Below the pieces are notes generated by a model. That model searched no databases. It worked only from the letters and a program-made list of their open reading frames with translations, and was not told the DNA's origin. This document shows, one piece after another, positions 34,940-42,582 of a stretch of DNA of 64,000 nt (within the stretch, counting starts at the first letter, position 1; every line of letters starts with the position of its first letter). Origin of the DNA: Streptomyces sp. PCS3-D2 (lineage in GTDB: Bacteria > Actinomycetota > Actinomycetes > Streptomycetales > Streptomycetaceae); contig NZ_CP097800.1 of the NCBI RefSeq assembly GCF_000612545.2, positions 5,034,501 through 5,098,500 of the forward strand. Direction: 5' to 3'. The position numbers were made by a program, and so were the translations under genes.

Positions 34940-36616
34940 GTGAACGACCGACAGGATCCGTACGACCCGTACGCCGCCCACGAGCAGCAGCTCATCGGCT
35001 ACGACGCGTACGGGCGGCCGGTGTACGGCCAGGCGCCCGCGCAGCCCGCCCACCAGTACGAGCAGCAGGGCTACGGCTACGACTACCAGGGCTACGACCA
35101 GCCCCAGCAGTACTACCAGCAGCAGCCGGCGGCCCAGGAGTACGGGCAGCAGGAGTACCCCCAGGCGCCCTCCTACGGCTACGACGCGCAGCACGGCGGC
35201 CGGCCCCCGCAGCAGGCCCAGCACCAGCAGTGGATCCCGCAGCAGCAGGCTCCCGAGCCTCCGGCGGCCGAGCAGCCCTCGGCCCCGGCGGAGCGGGCGT
35301 CCGGCCAGGTCCCCGAGCCGCGCCGGTCCGAGGACGGCTCCGAGGCGGGCCGGGACTACCGCACCGAGATGTTCGCGTTCATCGACCAGCCGGACGAGGA
35401 CTCCGAGGACGTCATCGACTGGCTCAAGTTCACCGAGAGCCGCACCGAGCGCCGCGAGGAGGCACGCCGCCGCGGGCGCAACCGGGTGGTCGCGCTGATC
35501 GTGGCCCTCGCCGTATTCGTCGTCGCGGGCCTGGGCTACCTCTGGTACGCGGGCAAGCTGCCGTTCCTCGACGGCCCCGGCGGGAAGAAGACCGCCGCCA
35601 CCGCGGACGCCGCGGCGCAGAAGCGCGACATGATCGTCGTGCACCTGCACAACACCAAGAAGGGCGGTACCTCCTCGGCACTGCTCGTCGACAACGTCAC
35701 CACCGGGCAGGGCGCCACCGTCCTGTTGCCGAACGCCCTCGCCGTCACCGGCCAGGACGGCACCGCCACGGCCCTGGGCAAGGCGGTCGAGGAGGGCGGC
35801 CTCGGCACCCGCGAGGCCCTCGACTCCGTGCTCGGCACCCGGATCGGCGGTACCTGGCGCCTGGACACCCCCTTCCTGGAGAACCTGGTCGAGCTGGTCG
35901 GCGGCATCGAGGTCGACACCGACACCGCGGTCCCGGCCGACGACGCGGCGAAGACCCCAGCCGTGGGGCAGGGCCCGAAGCAGAGCCTGAGCGGCCCGAT
36001 GGCCGTCGCGTACGCCACGTACCGGGCGCAGGGCGAACCGGAGGCCAAGCAGCTGGAACGCACGGGCAAGGTGCTCCACGGCGTCCTGCGCAAGTTCCCG
36101 GGCGACCCGAAGGCCGGGGCCGTCACAGTCGAGAGCATCGGCCAGATCCTCGATCCCGCGCTGAACGCCCAGACCCTCGGGGCCCTGCTGTCCAAGCTCG
36201 GCGCGCACGCCAAGGTGGGCGCGTACCGCACCGACGTCGTCGCGGTGAAGGCGGACGGGACGCTCACGGACGAGGCCAACAAGAAGGTGGTCAAGGAGGT
36301 GCTCGGCGGCTCCGCGGACTCGGCCCGGCCCGGCGCCGTCCCGCGCGTCGGACTCAAGGACGCCAGCGGCGACGAGAAGGCGCAGGTCGCGGCGAAGGCG
36401 GCGCTGCTGAACGGCGGCTACACCTTCGTGGACGGCGGCAAGGCCGACAAGACCGCGGCCGCCTCGCAGATCACCTACCAGGACGACGCCCAGCGCGACC
36501 GCGCGATCGAGGTCGCCAAGACCCTGGGCCTGCCCGAGACGGTCGTGAAGAAGGCCGAGAACGCGGTGAACGCCGAGGTCGTGGTGATCCTCGGGAAGGA
36601 CTACAAGCAGTCCTGA
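34940..36616 (+). CDS. LCP-like / LytR_C membrane protein, probably catalytically degenerate
   Basis: A 558-residue protein. The cytoplasmic part (1-180) is a Gln/Tyr/Pro-rich disordered region with repeated YGYD/QQ patterns, then an acidic and basic helix. One transmembrane helix spans about 187-207. The region 230-385 resembles a LytR-CpsA-Psr domain in spacing (NLVELVGGIEVDTD, LSGPMAVAYATYR). However, the usual lipid-phosphate-binding Arg residues are missing: the SIPRD position reads LLPNA, and the RxRxxxDxGRxxRQ block is not kept. A LytR_C domain ends the protein (about 455-555). GTG 34940 follows GAGAGGGG. It may be a scaffold in wall glycopolymer attachment rather than an enzyme. Confidence 0.82.
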   Translation: MNDRQDPYDPYAAHEQQLIGYDAYGRPVYGQAPAQPAHQYEQQGYGYDYQGYDQPQQYYQQQPAAQEYGQQEYPQAPSYGYDAQHGGRPPQQAQHQQWIPQQQAPEPPAAEQPSAPAERASGQVPEPRRSEDGSEAGRDYRTEMFAFIDQPDEDSEDVIDWLKFTESRTERREEARRRGRNRVVALIVALAVFVVAGLGYLWYAGKLPFLDGPGGKKTAATADAAAQKRDMIVVHLHNTKKGGTSSALLVDNVTTGQGATVLLPNALAVTGQDGTATALGKAVEEGGLGTREALDSVLGTRIGGTWRLDTPFLENLVELVGGIEVDTDTAVPADDAAKTPAVGQGPKQSLSGPMAVAYATYRAQGEPEAKQLERTGKVLHGVLRKFPGDPKAGAVTVESIGQILDPALNAQTLGALLSKLGAHAKVGAYRTDVVAVKADGTLTDEANKKVVKEVLGGSADSARPGAVPRVGLKDASGDEKAQVAAKAALLNGGYTFVDGGKADKTAAASQITYQDDAQRDRAIEVAKTLGLPETVVKKAENAVNAEVVVILGKDYKQS

Positions 36617-36648
36617 CCGGGCCGCGGCCCGGCCGGGCGAGGGCGTTC

Positions 36649-36678
36649 GCGCCCGCGCGGAACGTTCCGCGCGGGCGC
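36649..36678 (+). terminator. 30-bp perfect palindrome after LCP-like gene
   Basis: The two 15-nt halves 36649-36663 and 36664-36678 are exactly complementary; folded, they give an 11-13 bp stem with a small GAACGTTC-centred loop. It lies 33 nt past the stop and before the rsfS start, acting as a probable terminator. Confidence 0.72.
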
Positions 36679-36736
36679 TGTCGGCGGTACATGAGACCCT
36701 TGTAAGGATCTGCCCGCCAACCCGAAAGCATGGCCA

Positions 36737-37183
36737 GTGACCGCCACGGACCGCTCCATCGAGCTCATCACCACCGCTGCCCAGGCCGCGGCCGACCGGC
36801 TCGCACACGACATCATCGCGTACGACGTCAGCGACGTGCTGTCGATCACCGACGCCTTCCTGCTCGCCTCGGCGCCCAACGACCGCCAGGTCAAGTCGAT
36901 CGTCGACGAGATCGAGGAGCGCCTGCAGAAGGAGCTCGGCGCCAAGCCGGTGCGCCGTGAGGGCGACCGCGACGCCCGCTGGATCCTGCTCGACTACGTC
37001 GACATCGTCGTCCACGTCCAGCACAGCGAGGAGCGGGTCTTCTACGCGCTGGAGCGCCTGTGGAAGGACTGCCCCGAGATCGAGCTCCCCGAGGACGCCA
37101 AGCTCACCATCGGCAAGGCCGAGGAGCACGCCAAGCTGCGCGAGGCGCAGGGCGACGAGGACCTGGACGGTGATCTGTTCTGA
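36737..37183 (+). CDS. rsfS: Ribosome silencing factor RsfS
   Basis: A 148-residue DUF143/Oligomerisation-type protein that binds L14 and blocks 30S-50S joining in stationary phase. Diagnostic segments are DVLSITDAFLLASAPNDRQV and GEGDRDARW-ILLDYVDIVVHVQH in the expected order. The start is GTG 36737 with a poor ribosome site; TAAGGAT about 30 nt upstream may be part of its promoter. The stop overlaps the CTG start of the phosphatase gene. Confidence 0.93.
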   Translation: MTATDRSIELITTAAQAAADRLAHDIIAYDVSDVLSITDAFLLASAPNDRQVKSIVDEIEERLQKELGAKPVRREGDRDARWILLDYVDIVVHVQHSEERVFYALERLWKDCPEIELPEDAKLTIGKAEEHAKLREAQGDEDLDGDLF

Positions 37184-37836
37184 GCGCGACCACCTCGGGC
37201 CGGGCCGGCAGGAAGATCGTTCTCTGGAGGCACGGCCAGACCGCGTGGAACCTGGAACGGCGCTTCCAGGGATCGACGGACATCGAGCTGACCGAGACGG
37301 GCCTGGCACAGGCGCGCCGGTCCGCGCGACTGCTCGCCTCGCTGCGGCCGGACGCCATCGTCGCGTCCGATCTGAAGCGGGCCGCGGCCACCGCGGCCGA
37401 GCTGTCCGCCGTCACGGGCCTGCCCGTGACGCACGCGGAGGCGCTGCGCGAGACGTACGCGGGCGAGTGGCAGGGCCTGACGCACGAGGAGATCGTCGAG
37501 AAGTACGGCGAGCAGTACGCGGCGTGGAAGCGCGGCGAGCCGGTCCGCCGGGGCGGCGGTGAGCTGGAGACCGAGGTCGCCGACCGCGCCGCGCCCGTGG
37601 TGCTGGAGCACACCGGCCGACTGCCGGCGAACGGCACCCTCGTCGTGGTCAGCCACGGCGGCACCATCCGCACCACCATCGGGCGTCTGCTGGGCCTGGA
37701 GGCGCACTCCTGGGAGAGCCTGGGCGGACTCTCCAACTGCTGCTGGTCCGTGCTCGGCGAGGGCGCGCGCGGCTGGCGCCTGCTGGAGCACAACGCCGGC
37801 ACGCTGCCCGAACCGGTGCTCGGCGACGACGACTGA
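37180..37836 (+). CDS. Histidine phosphatase family protein, CTG start
   Basis: A 218-residue phosphoglycerate-mutase-like phosphatase. The catalytic RHG is in VLWRHGQTAWNLERRFQG at about residues 14-31, and the second His is in VVSHGGTIRTT. The first in-frame ATG, GTG or TTG is GTG 37426, after the RHG motif, and an in-frame TGA at 37171-37173 closes the frame upstream. The only credible start is CTG 37180, whose last two bases overlap the rsfS TGA (CTGA), a coupled arrangement like ATGA or GTGA. The substrate is unknown. Confidence 0.88.
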   Translation: MSATTSGRAGRKIVLWRHGQTAWNLERRFQGSTDIELTETGLAQARRSARLLASLRPDAIVASDLKRAAATAAELSAVTGLPVTHAEALRETYAGEWQGLTHEEIVEKYGEQYAAWKRGEPVRRGGGELETEVADRAAPVVLEHTGRLPANGTLVVVSHGGTIRTTIGRLLGLEAHSWESLGGLSNCCWSVLGEGARGWRLLEHNAGTLPEPVLGDDD

Positions 37837-37877
37837 GCGGGCTCCCTGCCGCTTCCCGACGGGTCGCCGACCCGGAT

Positions 37878-37907
37878 TTCACTTTCCGGCTGGTCGCAGG
37901 CTAGAGT
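37878..37907 (+). promoter_or_regulatory. Promoter of first tRNA-Ala
   Basis: TTCACT (37878-37883), an 18-nt spacer and TAGAGT (37902-37907) lie about 54 nt upstream of the mature tRNA. Confidence 0.5.
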
Positions 37908-37960
37908 TCTTCTTGTTCGCAGCGAAGAACACCGGAGACGGGGGAAGCGCAGCGGAGAGC

Positions 37961-38033
37961 GGGGCTATAGCTCAGTTGGTAGAGCGCCTGCATGGCATGC
38001 AGGAGGTCAGGAGTTCAATTCTCCTTAGCTCCA
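37961..38033 (+). tRNA. tRNA-Ala (anticodon GGC), copy 1
   Basis: A 73-nt cloverleaf. The acceptor GGGGCTA pairs with TAGCTCC, the D-arm is GCTC/GAGC, the anticodon stem CCTGC/GCAGG holds loop ATGGCAT with anticodon GGC, and the T-arm is AGGAG/CTCCT with TTCAATT. The discriminator base is A and no CCA is encoded. It has its own promoter and a U-tract terminator. The sequence is identical to the second copy 508 nt downstream. Confidence 0.97.
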
Positions 38034-38039
38034 CAATCA

Positions 38040-38077
38040 GGATCCCGTCCCCAAGTGGGGGCGGGATCCCTGTTTTT
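38040..38077 (+). terminator. Intrinsic terminator of first tRNA-Ala
   Basis: The 13-bp stem 38040-38052 with 38057-38069 (one G-U pair, loop AAGT) is followed by CTGTTTTT, a rare textbook U-tract terminator for this genome type. Confidence 0.9.
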
Positions 38078-38176
38078 GTACCCTTTGCGTTTGCTGACCC
38101 TGCACGCACCGGCGTGGCAGAATCGGACCGCCGGAGGGGGAGTCGACGGCCCGACGCGGGAGGGAGTCGCGAACGG

Positions 38177-38410
38177 ATGGGTGCACACCGGCGCCGGTGC
38201 GACTGGTGCAACAACGGGACGCCGATCGTGCGGGACATGGACCCGGTCAACCCCGACTACCAGTACTGGTGCGAGGAATGCGCGCGGGCGCTGATCATAA
38301 AGGGCGACCCGATCGAGACGTACCGCGAGCTGGAAGGGGAGCCGATCTACGGTCGGCTGCTCGATGAGCACTGCACGCTCAAGCGGTTCTACCAGTTCGC
38401 GAGAGCGTGA
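38177..38410 (+). CDS. Small four-cysteine (zinc-ribbon-like) hypothetical protein
   Basis: A 77-residue protein. Two CxxC pairs, C8/C11 (CDWCNNG) and C32/C35 (WCEECA), are spaced 20 residues apart as in a zinc ribbon. The rest is acidic with a conserved-looking DMDPVNPDYQYW segment. The GGGAGGGAG purine run lies about 10 nt before ATG 38177. It sits alone between two identical tRNA-Ala genes. Its size and Cys pairs suggest a metal-stabilised regulatory or binding protein; the function is unknown. Confidence 0.78.
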   Translation: MGAHRRRCDWCNNGTPIVRDMDPVNPDYQYWCEECARALIIKGDPIETYRELEGEPIYGRLLDEHCTLKRFYQFARA

Positions 38411-38421
38411 CGGATCGATGT

Positions 38422-38474
38422 AAATCGGACATGGCCCGTGGTTCGCAGAAACCGATTTTTGGACCAGGGCCATG
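38422..38474 (+). promoter_or_regulatory. Overlapping alternative hairpins after the four-Cys gene
   Basis: AAATCGG (38422-38428) pairs with CCGATTT (38453-38459), which runs into TTTTT. Alternatively CATGGCCC (38430-38437) pairs with GGGCCATG (38467-38474). The two interleave as a pseudoknot-like pair. The first would be the terminator of the small gene; the second overlaps the next tRNA promoter. Confidence 0.45.
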
Positions 38475-38486
38475 ACCGTGTAATGT
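38459..38486 (+). promoter_or_regulatory. Promoter of second tRNA-Ala
   Basis: TTGGAC (38459-38464), a 16-nt spacer and TAATGT (38481-38486) form a good vegetative promoter 55 nt before the tRNA. Confidence 0.7.
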
Positions 38487-38541
38487 TTGGGACGTCGCCA
38501 AGGGGAACCGGCAAGGGAAACCGAAGCGGCAAGCAAGGCAA

Positions 38542-38614
38542 GGGGCTATAGCTCAGTTGGTAGAGCGCCTGCATGGCATGCAGGAGGTCAGGAGTTCAAT
38601 TCTCCTTAGCTCCA
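38542..38614 (+). tRNA. tRNA-Ala (anticodon GGC), copy 2
   Basis: Base-for-base identical to the copy at 37961-38033 over 73 nt, with the same cloverleaf and GGC anticodon. The flanks differ except for the following CA, so each copy has independent expression signals. It is followed at once by a strong hairpin. Confidence 0.97.
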
Positions 38615-38620
38615 CAGTGA

Positions 38621-38655
38621 AGAAGCGGGCCACCCGGATCGGGTGGCCCGCTTCT
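38621..38655 (+). terminator. Terminator of second tRNA-Ala
   Basis: A 15-bp perfect stem, 38621-38635 with 38641-38655, loop GGATC. It begins 6 nt after the tRNA. Confidence 0.88.
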
Positions 38656-38704
38656 CGTGGTACCACCGGGTGGAACGGCCGAGCGTCGGCGGGGGCCGCT
38701 GCGG

Positions 38705-38710
38705 TACCCT
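38705..38710 (+). promoter_or_regulatory. -10 box of leuS leader transcript
   Basis: TACCCT lies 6 nt before the ATG of the leader peptide, so the leader peptide would be translated from a leaderless mRNA. Confidence 0.6.
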
Positions 38711-38716
38711 GACGCC

Positions 38717-38755
38717 ATGCGTGCCGTACGCCTCCTGCTTACCGAGCCGCGCTGA
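38717..38755 (+). CDS. leuS leader peptide (12 aa, three consecutive Leu codons)
   Basis: A 12-codon frame reading MRAVRLLLTEPR then TGA, with CTC CTG CTT in a row. It begins 6 nt after a -10 box and ends about 40 nt before a U-tract terminator placed ahead of leuS. The arrangement is that of ribosome-mediated transcription attenuation: scarce Leu-tRNA(Leu) would stall the ribosome on the Leu codons and let leuS be transcribed. It is too short to be found by normal gene calling. This is direct sequence reading plus inference; no expression data are seen here. Confidence 0.7.
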   Translation: MRAVRLLLTEPR

Positions 38756-38761
38756 TCAGTG

Positions 38762-38819
38762 CCGACCGTCGAAACGGTCGGACCCGGCGCGGCGCCCCCT
38801 CCTGTGCGAGGGGTTTTTT
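38762..38819 (+). promoter_or_regulatory. leuS attenuator (hairpins and U-tract terminator)
   Basis: Hairpin A is a perfect 8-bp stem, 38762-38769 with 38774-38781, loop CGAA. Hairpin B is the terminator, CCCCTC (38796-38801) with GAGGGG (38808-38813), followed by six T. An alternative pairing, GCCGCGC (38746-38752, end of the leader peptide) with GCGCGGC (38787-38793), could compete. Together these would switch leuS transcription with leader translation. The exact antiterminator is not proven. Confidence 0.62.
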
Positions 38820-38869
38820 CGTTTGGGCAGGCAGAGACGGCAGAGACGATCGATGGAGCTTCAGAAATC

Positions 38870-41734
38870 ATGAGCGAGACGAACACCCCGGCCCCCGAGG
38901 CGGCCGAGGCGCACCGCTACACGGCTGCCATGGCCGCCGACATCGAGGCACGCTGGCAGGACGTATGGGACGCGCAGGGCACGTACGAAGCCCCGAACCC
39001 GACCGGTGACCTCGCCGGGGACCCCGCGATCGTCGCCCGGCCCAAGAAGTTCATCATGGACATGTTCCCGTACCCCTCCGGTGCGGGCCTGCACGTCGGC
39101 CACCCGCTCGGGTACATCGCCACCGACGTCTACGCCCGCCACCAGCGGATGACCGGCCACAACGTCCTGCACACCCTGGGATTCGACGCCTTCGGCCTGC
39201 CGGCCGAGCAGTACGCCGTGCAGACCGGCACGCACCCGCGCGTGTCGACCGAGGCGAACATCGAGAACATGAAGCTCCAGCTGCGCCGGCTGGGCCTGGG
39301 CCACGACAAGCGCCGGTCCTTCGCCACGATCGACCCCGAGTACTACAAGTGGACCCAGTGGATCTTCCTGCAGATCTACAACTCCTGGTACGACGCGGAC
39401 GCGCAGAAGGCCCGGCCCGTCGCCGAGCTGGTCGCCGCCTTCGAGGACGGCTCCCGTGAGGTCCCGGGCGGCCGCGCCTGGTCCGGCCTGACCGCGGCCG
39501 AGCGCGCCGACGTGCTGAACGGCTTCCGCCTGGCGTACTCCTCCGACGCGCCCGTCAACTGGTGCCCCGGGCTGGGCACCGTACTGGCCAATGAGGAGGT
39601 CACCGCCGACGGCCGTTCCGAGCGCGGCAACTTCCCGGTCTTCAAGTCCAGGCTGAGCCAGTGGAACATGCGGATCACCGCGTACGCCGACCGACTGCTC
39701 GACGACCTGGACGCGCTGGACTGGCCCGAGGCCATCAAGCTGCAGCAGCGCAACTGGATCGGCCGCAGCGAGGGAGCCCGCGTCGACTTCGCGCTGGGCG
39801 ACGAGGCCATCACCGTCTTCACCACCCGCCCGGACACCCTGTTCGGCGCCACCTACATGGTGCTGGCGCCCGAGCACCCGCTGGTCGAGAAGTTCATCCC
39901 GGCCGCCTGGCCCGAGGGCACCCACGACGTGTGGACGGGCGGTTACGCCACCCCGGCCGAGGCCGTCGCCGCCTACCGCGGGCAGGCCGCCGCCAAGTCG
40001 GACGTCGAGCGCCAGGCCGAGGCCAAGGACAAGACCGGCGTCTTCACCGGCGAGTACGCGACCAACCCGGTCAGCGGCGACAAGGTCCCGGTCTTCATCG
40101 CCGACTACGTGCTGATGGGCTACGGCACCGGCGCGATCATGGCCGTTCCCGCGCACGACAGCCGTGACTTCGAGTTCGCGCGCGCCTTCGAGCTGCCGAT
40201 GCGCTGTGTCGTGCAGCCCTCGGACGGGCGCGGAACCGACCCGGCCGAGTGGGACGACGCCTTCGCCTCGTACGACGCGAAGCTGGTCAACTCCACGGGC
40301 GAGGGCATCTCGCTGGACGGCCTGGGCGTCGTCGAGGCCAAGGCCGCGATCACCGAATGGCTGGCCGAGCGCGGCATCGGTGAGGGGACGGTCAACTTCC
40401 GTCTGCGCGACTGGCTGTTCAGCCGGCAGCGCTACTGGGGCGAGCCCTTCCCGATCGTCTACGACGAGGACGGCGTCGCGCACTCCCTGCCCGAGTCGAT
40501 GCTGCCGCTGGAGCTGCCGGAGGTCGAGGACTACGCGCCGCGCACCTTCGAGCCGGACGACGCGGACTCGCAGCCGGAGACCCCGCTGTCGCGCAAGGCC
40601 GACTGGGTCAATGTCGAGCTGGACCTGGGCGACGGCGTGAAGTCCTACCGGCGCGAGACCAACACCATGCCCAACTGGGCCGGTTCCTGCTGGTACGAGC
40701 TGCGCTACCTGGACCCGAACAACGCCTCCGCACTGGTCGACCCGGAGATCGAGCAGTACTGGATGGGCCCGCGCGAGGGCGCTCCGCACGGCGGTGTCGA
40801 CCTGTACGTGGGCGGCGCCGAGCACGCGGTGCTGCACCTGCTGTACGCCCGCTTCTGGTCGAAGGTCCTCTTCGACCTGGGGCACGTGTCGTCGGTCGAG
40901 CCGTTCCACAAGCTCTTCAACCAGGGCATGATCCAGGCCTACGTCTACCGTGACGAGCGCGGCTTCCCGGTCACGGCCACCGAGGTCGAGGAGCGCGACG
41001 GCGCGTTCTTCTTCGAGGGCGAGCAGGTCAAGCGCGAGCTGGGCAAGATGGGCAAGTCCCTGAAGAACGCCGTCACGCCGGACGAGATCTGCACGGAGTA
41101 CGGCGCCGACACGCTGCGCCTGTACGAGATGGCGATGGGCCCCCTGGACGTCTCCCGCCCGTGGGACACCCGCGCGGTCGTCGGCCAGTACCGCCTGCTG
41201 CAGCGCCTGTGGCGCAACATCGTGGACGAGGAGACCGGCGCGGTCACCGTCGTGGACGCGGAACCCGCCGAGGACACCCTGCGTGCGTTGCACAAGGCCA
41301 TCGACGGGGCGGGCTCGGACATGGCGGGGCTGCGGTTCAACACCGCCATCGCCAAGATCACCGAGCTGAACAACGCCCTGACGAAGGCGGGCCGCCCGCT
41401 GGAGCGCTCGGTCGCCGAGCGGCTGGTCCTGCTGGTCGCGCCGCTTGCCCCGCACATCGCGGAGGAGCTGTGGCACCGGCTGGGTCACAGCGAGTCGGTG
41501 GTCCACCAGGACTTCCCCGTAGCGGACCCGGCGTACGTCGTGGACGAGAGCGTGACGTGCGTGGTGCAGGTCAAGGGCAAGGTCAAGGCGCGGCTGGAGG
41601 TGCCGCCGACGATCACGGACGCCGAGCTGGAGCAGCTGGCCGTGACCGACGCCGCCGTGGTGGCGGCCCTGGGCGGCGCGGAGATCCGCAAGGTGATCGT
41701 GCGTGCGCCGAAGCTGGTGAACATCGTCGTCTGA
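38870..41734 (+). CDS. leuS: Leucyl-tRNA synthetase
   Basis: A 954-residue class Ia synthetase charging tRNA-Leu. The HIGH-type signature is [15 protein letters not shown] (about residues 65-79), and the KMSKS loop reads KMGKS at 726-730. The CP1 editing domain (about 250-450) includes [23 protein letters not shown] 38870 is the natural family start; GGAGCTTCAG lies upstream. Expression is probably controlled by the leader peptide/terminator described above. Confidence 0.97.
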
Positions 41735-41764
41735 GGGCGCACCCCCGTATGAGGGGGATCCCGT

Positions 41765-41807
41765 ACGGGCAGGTTGGGGGTTCGAAGGGAACCCCCGACC
41801 TGCCCGT
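41765..41807 (+). terminator. 19-bp terminator hairpin after leuS
   Basis: Arms 41765-41783 and 41789-41807 pair fully with one G-U and a 5-nt loop. It starts 31 nt past the leuS stop. Confidence 0.85.
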
Positions 41808-41856
41808 GGCGTTTACGGTGGAGGGGAAGAGCGGACGCCTGGGGAAAGGGGCCGTC

Positions 41857-42582
41857 ATGGAGGCCGCGTTGATCATCTTCGCGCTGATGCTGCTGGCCAT
41901 GGTCGGCCTCGGCGCGTACCTCACGGTCAAGGCGGTGGGCGCGGCCAAGCGGGGCGTGGAGCGCACCGTCGCCCAGGCGCGACGCAGCGTGGAGGACACC
42001 ACGCTGCGCGCCAAGAGCTTCGGCCAGGTCGGCGTTGCGGGCGCGCTGGCGCAGCTGCGGCTGGACCTGCGCACGTCCATGCGCGCCACCCAGCAGGCGC
42101 TGGCCGAGGGAGCCCGGACGGACGCCTCGCTGCGGGAGTCCCTCGGGCTGTTCGAGCGGCTCAGCGCCCACGGGCACGAGCTCGACGGGGAGCTGAAGCG
42201 GCTGGAGCAGGAGCCCGACCGGCGGCGCACCGCCGAGCTGCTGCCGGATCTGCGCGAGCGCACCGCCAGGATCATCGAGGCGGCGGACTCGCTGCGGTGG
42301 GCCGCCCGCGACCGGGCCCGCCGCTTCGCGGAGGACGAGCTGTCCCTGCTGTCCGAGCAGATCGAGATGGAGTCGGGCGCGCTGCGCGACTGGTCGCGCG
42401 AGCCGGTGGACGGCCTGGCGACGGCGGCCGCCGAGTGGGACGCGGCCCAGGCCACGCCCACCGCCCCCGGGCCGGCGGCCCCGAAGCCGGCGACCGCACC
42501 CCCGCAGGCGGCCCTGAACCCGCCGACCCCGACGATGCAGTACCCGTGGCAGAAGACCGCCCGCCCGGAAAGCGCGGGCTGA
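41857..42582 (+). CDS. Membrane-anchored coiled-coil protein (function unknown)
   Basis: A 241-residue protein. An N-terminal transmembrane helix (about residues 4-26, IIFALMLLAMVGLGAYLTV) is followed by a long Arg/Glu/Leu-rich helical, probably coiled-coil region (about 30-180) and a Pro/Ala-rich tail. The topology resembles DUF948-type or ATP-synthase-b-like scaffold proteins, but I do not recognise a specific family. GGGGAAAGGGG precedes the ATG. It is monocistronic between the leuS terminator and the G-rich gap. Confidence 0.8.
   Translation: MEAALIIFALMLLAMVGLGAYLTVKAVGAAKRGVERTVAQARRSVEDTTLRAKSFGQVGVAGALAQLRLDLRTSMRATQQALAEGARTDASLRESLGLFERLSAHGHELDGELKRLEQEPDRRRTAELLPDLRERTARIIEAADSLRWAARDRARRFAEDELSLLSEQIEMESGALRDWSREPVDGLATAAAEWDAAQATPTAPGPAAPKPATAPPQAALNPPTPTMQYPWQKTARPESAG

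Follow-up and report, generated by a model that had tools for sequence, protein, structure and literature searches.

A leucine-codon leader and a stem abutting the terminator before leuS of Streptomyces and other actinobacteria: a candidate ribosome-mediated transcription attenuator

The window analysed here, the whole stretch of 64,000 nucleotides from Streptomyces sp. PCS3-D2, contains leuS preceded by a compact leader with a -10 box, a short frame carrying three consecutive Leu codons, two hairpins and a tract of six T (Table 1). All of these parts had been placed by an earlier sequence-only reading of the same DNA, and our analysis recovered each of them base for base at the same positions. 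Shortly 5' of the leader lie two tRNA-Ala(GGC) genes (37961-38034 and 38542-38615), about 580 bp apart, whose Rfam scores and alignments are equal. At the other end, a six-codon frame, MELQKS (38853-38873), has a stop that overlaps the leuS start (ATGA); this overlap is probably ordinary, since only 9 of 66 relatives have it.

Table 1. Parts of the leuS leader in the window of Streptomyces sp. PCS3-D2.
Feature	Position	Strand	Remarks
-10 box TACCCT	38705..38710	+	6 nt 5' of the leader ATG; predicted leaderless transcript
Leader frame MRAVRLLLTEPR + TGA	38717..38755	+	ATG at 38717
Leu run CTC CTG CTT in leader frame	38732-38740	+	
Stem P1, 5' strand	38746..38754	+	end of leader frame into stop codon; starts 5 nt past the last Leu codon
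Inner 8-bp hairpin	38762..38781 (arms 38762-38769/38774-38781)	+	variable and dispensable across relatives
Stem P1, 3' strand (region 2)	38785..38793	+	ends 2 nt 5' of the terminator
Intrinsic terminator	38796..38819	+	6-bp stem 38796-38801/38808-38813, then six T 38814-38819
leuS, leucine--tRNA ligase (putative controlled gene)	38870..41734	+	TIGR00396 leuS_bact, 899.3 bits (cut-off 548.4)

Stem P1 is 9 bp long in the window and extends a pairing, 38746-38752 with 38787-38793, that the sequence-only reading had described as competing. The pairing itself exists and covaries (see below), but the competition does not hold up: P1 surrounds the first hairpin, finishes 2 nt short of the terminator and shares no bases with the latter, so that it competes with neither hairpin and folds alongside the terminator. 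The minimum-energy fold of the leader in the window contains P1, the inner hairpin and the terminator all at once.

To evaluate how widely this leader occurs, we scanned named genomes and found it in 74 of the best 80 leuS loci, these 74 coming from Streptomyces, from Streptantibioticus and from two records under the bare name 'Actinobacteria bacterium'. Conservation of the frame and its Leu codons among relatives was the check that the sequence-only reading had set for its attenuator, and with this result the idea survived. Two of the other six loci, from Kibdelosporangium (L076) and Lentzea (L081), carry a comparable leader that includes both the stem and the terminator, and the remaining four showed no leader in the stretch searched. 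Counted by its DNA pattern, the leader occurs in 319 of 395 family genomes, a few of these matches being chance coding sequence. All 30 family genomes examined among those without the pattern have a LeuS match, and 28 of these 30 carry a variant leader (e.g., MCAVRLLL, MRAVLLLTGPR, MRAVRLVLTGPR, and forms with GTG starts). L150 and L151 (genomes G353 and G360, of one genus) lack a leader; their sole strong LeuS match has an identity of 46%, and the best match of these genomes to the covariance model introduced below is the leuA leader. It appears that both have had their native-type leuS replaced. Two contigs from genomes labelled Planctomycetota (L078 and L079) hold LeuS pieces 70% and 66% identical to that of the window, reflecting either mis-binning or transfer. 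The set of 132 family sequences used in what follows was compiled after five loci (L101, L107, L109, L110 and L111) had been dropped as chance coding matches; L081 and L136 lie outside this set and inside the 38-sequence alignment A1.

From A1 we built a covariance model of P1 plus terminator, which at E up to 0.01 (the E-values being rough) matched 163 of 394 class genomes in 66 of 137 genera and, by our own count, 30 of 48 family labels, usually with one match per genome. Because the other 231 of the 394 are unmatched at E 0.01, many relatives must either lack the element or carry diverged forms of it. Inspecting 40 of the matches, from 38 genomes, by tblastn revealed that LeuS adjoins 38 of them, the exceptions being one match at a contig end (L202) and a second, weak match without LeuS (L225) that is false. 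The LeuS proteins beside the element fall into two groups by identity to that of the window, with 16 loci at 63-74% and 22 at 33-44%, and leuS_bact was the best family match for five low-identity pieces (L186, L191, L205, L214 and the leaderless-locus piece L150, which has no such element beside it), for a high-identity one (L195) and for one from another class (L226). One leader element before two divergent LeuS groups suggests either an old element or movement of the leader or the gene. In a sample of the phylum, 8 of 119 matched at E 0.001, of which two lie outside the class: L226 precedes LeuS, and L227 (E 9.5e-4) does not, its neighbour being a protein that presumably resembles acetolactate synthase.

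The sequence-only reading had further supposed that leuS is controlled here without a T-box, and our Rfam searches agree. No T-box match appeared at E up to 1 in the window stretch 36000-42500, where Rfam matched nothing but the two tRNAs, plus two sub-threshold hits overlapping these, and 20 class loci gave no Rfam match of any kind, T-box included, at E up to 1. As a separate observation, 15 of 35 class loci (L186-L224) have a motif close to TG[TC]C[CAT]G beyond the T tract, about 10 nt past the terminator arm, against a mean of 2.0 and at most 7 in 300 shuffles.

Evaluating which features of these leaders are constrained, we found the leaderless start, the Leu run, P1, its junction with the terminator and the stop codon to be among them. 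A TANNNT box lies exactly 6 nt 5' of the start in 122 of the 132 family leaders and 6-7 nt 5' of the ATG or GTG in all 37 class leaders, a set that leaves out L194 (wrong strand), L190 (cut by a contig end) and the false match L225. The last Leu codon is CTT in 164 of 169 leaders and CTC in the other 5, and within leuS itself CTT accounts for 4 of 3603 Leu codons at the 74 loci and 6 of 467 at the class loci (0.1-1.3%). From the end of this codon to P1 the spacing is exactly 5 nt in 37 of 38 class matches, with the false match L225 as the exception; we took this figure from the 38-locus count, which is not anchored on the Leu codon and in which the P1 partner of L192 is misassigned, because the 37 class leaders in the set of 169 had been anchored on a Leu codon. 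The stop codon occupies P1 bases 8-10 in 159 of the 169 leaders; in 6 it precedes that site, with its final base on P1 base 1, and in 4 it lies elsewhere or was not found. Downstream, the P1-terminator unit was located in 167 of 169 (none found in L209 and L215), and 0-2 unpaired nt separate stem and terminator in 164 of these 167. In the family sequences region 2 stands exactly 2 nt from CCCCTC in 123 of 132, three with GGCGGC being mis-anchored and scored as 0 nt. The distance between the two P1 strands ranges from 2 to 100 nt (median 30), and the first hairpin, enclosed between them, varies in sequence and length and is missing from several genera. Within this genome the terminator unit gave one exact match, at the leuS locus, and three at 3 mismatches, the backward-pattern control giving 15.

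The pairing in P1 is likewise constrained. Its first ten positions form standard pairs in 98.3% of cases across the 132 sequences, compared with 20.9-58.3% when the strands are slid by 1-4 nt. In A1, 11 cells changed on both sides of P1 versus 2.6 in shuffles, and the covariation score was reached by none of 500 shuffles, with two measures that count P1 pairs and types being reached by 15 and 11 of 500; these shuffles ignore kinship, and P1 had been chosen from these very sequences. Across the class matches, P1 pairs 5-8 occur in several Watson-Crick types, whereas the five pairs nearest the terminator are almost invariant and so offer little evidence of covariation.

Since leuS is preceded by a terminator and by a Leu leader peptide that is both conserved and leaderless, an attenuator is the best reading of the locus, as the sequence-only reading had proposed, and judging from the sequence comparison the element likely acts by leucyl-tRNA-controlled attenuation. 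Two broad marks of an attenuator are present outright, namely a frame with a Leu run and a terminator between that frame and leuS; a third, a conserved stem placed for control by ribosome position, is present as far as geometry goes, in the 5-nt spacing and the site of the stop codon. On this observed anatomy, conservation, covariation and spacing we base the following scheme, in which the stalling, the direction of the response and, more than either, the steric step are what we infer. The mRNA would begin at the leader AUG, and a ribosome would initiate at once. With ample Leu-tRNA, this ribosome would reach the stop codon and cover the 5' strand of P1 while RNA polymerase makes the terminator, which would then form and stop transcription. 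With scarce Leu-tRNA (probably the isoacceptor reading CUU/CUC), the ribosome would stall on the Leu codons and leave P1 free to fold ahead of the terminator, and the abutment at 0-2 nt would prevent the terminator from closing completely inside the exit channel of RNA polymerase, such that leuS would be transcribed.

Several geometrical points bear on this scheme. A spacer of about 5 nt past the A-site codon corresponds roughly to the mRNA entry of the ribosome, as in the spacers of frameshifting signals, and since P1 starts 5 nt past the A-site Leu codon a stalled ribosome would not disturb it. One that has run on to the stop codon would sit over the 5' strand of P1, and starvation should therefore favour P1; because more LeuS is expected under starvation, P1 should in turn oppose termination. 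The fixed junction between P1 and terminator suggests that it does so by steric hindrance in the exit channel. This step, in which P1 hinders completion of the terminator it abuts, is a tentative part of the scheme, and our literature search found no precedent for steric antitermination by an adjacent stem. To the explanation as a whole, a ribosome-mediated transcription attenuator of leuS in which P1 acts as the steric hindrance, we assign a probability of about one half. The model predicts that abolishing initiation at the leader would raise readthrough, whereas in classical attenuators the response is the opposite and loss of initiation lowers it. A point against the scheme is that mutants of the related S. 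coelicolor ilvB and leuA leaders, according to passages of PMC1262725, did not behave as classical attenuators. A more far-reaching proposal, that actinobacteria at large share a new design in which a starvation stem blocks the terminator by contact without strand sharing, loss of leader translation raises readthrough and one rare-codon Leu-tRNA isoacceptor is sensed, is more speculative still.

The main comparison is with the classical four-strand attenuators known from trp, his and leu of enterobacteria and trpE of Streptomyces, in which a ribosome on hungry codons decides whether the terminator forms, as we propose for leuS, but in which antiterminator and terminator share bases, while P1 shares none with the leuS terminator. 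A switch of this trp type would have a sequestering antiterminator pair with the terminator arm or loop, with P1 or the ribosome deciding the outcome. We listed helices of at least 5 bp between upstream sequence and terminator in the 132 sequences and, together with competing folds, found no sequestering antiterminator kept across genera. Candidates do exist, such as the pairing of region 2 GCGCGG to loop CUGUGC or of GGAG..GGCG to CGUC..CUCC; a helix of region 2 with the loop occurs in about 88 of 132, and the competing fold, at -8.1 kcal/mol in the window, attains -8.7 in certain relatives, versus about -10 for the terminator. The commonest helices, however, joining the leader end to the loop (88), region 2 to the loop (77+6+5) and CGUACG to the loop (66), are weak, depend on G-U pairs or are confined to some genera. 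Pairing of the Leu codons with the 3' arm of the terminator (GCUCCUU with GAGGGGC and the like) was seen in 24 of 132 (10+8+3+3), fails if the second Leu codon is CTG, and leaves the preference for CTT over CTC unexplained. Over 87 distinct sequences, region 2 paired with the 5' arm and loop of the terminator at -5.1 kcal/mol in natural versus -6.2 in shuffled sequences (mean z +0.54, sd 0.77), and is thus the weaker in nature. A sequestering switch would moreover need region 2 to be covered, which a ribosome at the stop codon would not reach. Since the predicted folds of the family sequences contain P1 and the terminator at the same time, P1 is no antiterminator by free energy alone; with no conserved helix and region 2 pairing below the shuffled level, the textbook switch is not supported, and we regard it as unlikely, even though the S. 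coelicolor and S. avermitilis cases were termed classical by the 2005 authors in the text available from PMC1262725.

The same end-to-end arrangement of P1 and terminator, with its near-fixed gap and joint folding, could also mean that P1 aids termination, as a pause stem or by coaxial stacking, in which case a stall would lower leuS or the response would be to general translation; the direction would then be the reverse of that seen in other regulated synthetase genes, namely T-box genes and pheST, which makes this reading improbable. A nascent-chain arrest peptide responding to a signal other than Leu-tRNA, such as a translation inhibitor, would account for a peptide, MRAVRLLL[ST][EG]PR, that is nearly fixed within Streptomyces. 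Across the class, however, the peptide outside the Leu run is not kept, the residues before the run and the length change freely, and some leaders have their stop two codons past the run, with Leu codons, spacing and P1 still kept; an arrest peptide is thus very improbable. Control by leucine is argued from sequence comparison, so that one might suppose a constitutive terminator beside a chance frame and no regulation at all, but throughout the class the frame, its rare codon, the spacing and the stem are all conserved, which makes this scarcely credible.

In kind, the finding is known, because a leuS attenuator has been predicted (PMC1262725) and its leader peptide reported (PMC8079986) in the text accessible from these sources. 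For S. avermitilis and S. coelicolor, Seliverstov et al. (2005, PMC1262725) predicted that attenuators precede leuS, and in the accessible parts of that paper these share with our element the gene, the Leu-codon leader peptide, the stems and the terminator; the window element is almost certainly the same. That paper calls it classical, gives it an antiterminator hairpin and a terminator hairpin and attributes it to 'some Streptomyces'; the class-wide spread, leaderless start, codon bias and fixed P1-terminator gap go beyond those portions of its text. In S. lividans TK24, LeuL2 (MRAVRLLLSEPR) before leuS is leaderless by RNA-seq and followed by a hairpin and a uridine stretch (2021, PMC8079986); the window peptide is one residue apart, with T for S, and the account, as far as its accessible sections go, comes without structure comparison or mechanism. 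The LEU element of leuA likewise has a run of Leu codons followed by a stem, but in the sections consulted of PMC1262725 it has a pseudoknot, a base stem with a Shine-Dalgarno box and no terminator, whereas our element has a terminator and precedes leuS, and so is not a LEU element of this kind. The leuS model gives weak matches (E 0.012 and 0.015) to two leuA leaders, L228 and L229, and kinship of the leuA and leuS elements is possible. In the leuA leader MRFGLLLLSRRGEGL the Leu run lies shortly 5' of a GC-rich strand. Cys-responsive leaderless short frames of mycobacteria, reportedly named attenuators by Canestrari in 2020, are alike in being short and leaderless and differ in the amino acid, cysteine, and in the genes concerned. 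A 2010 comparison by Lopatovskaya and colleagues, on attenuators in genes for amino acids and aminoacyl-tRNAs, may hold more. In the accessible text of the open literature, including PMC4833913, PMC13236596, PMC2965389 and PMC3896937, we came upon no description of the element beyond Streptomyces.

Taken together, the element is real and conserved, and to the case already proposed for Streptomyces we add its class-wide spread, the preference for a rare codon, a covarying P1 and a non-overlapping design with a fixed junction. Its layout lends itself to testing, sharply and at little cost, whether antitermination can be brought about by a stem that lies beside an intrinsic terminator and has no bases in common with it, and its leaderless starts, 6-7 nt past the -10 box, offer a clean system for transcription-translation coupling on leaderless mRNA. 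For the cell, the leuS leader probably serves to make more of the enzyme when leucine-tRNA is scarce, as the sequence features would suggest, and because it occurs in many actinobacterial families and before two divergent LeuS lineages, leucyl-tRNA synthetase may be controlled chiefly by this element in much of the group.
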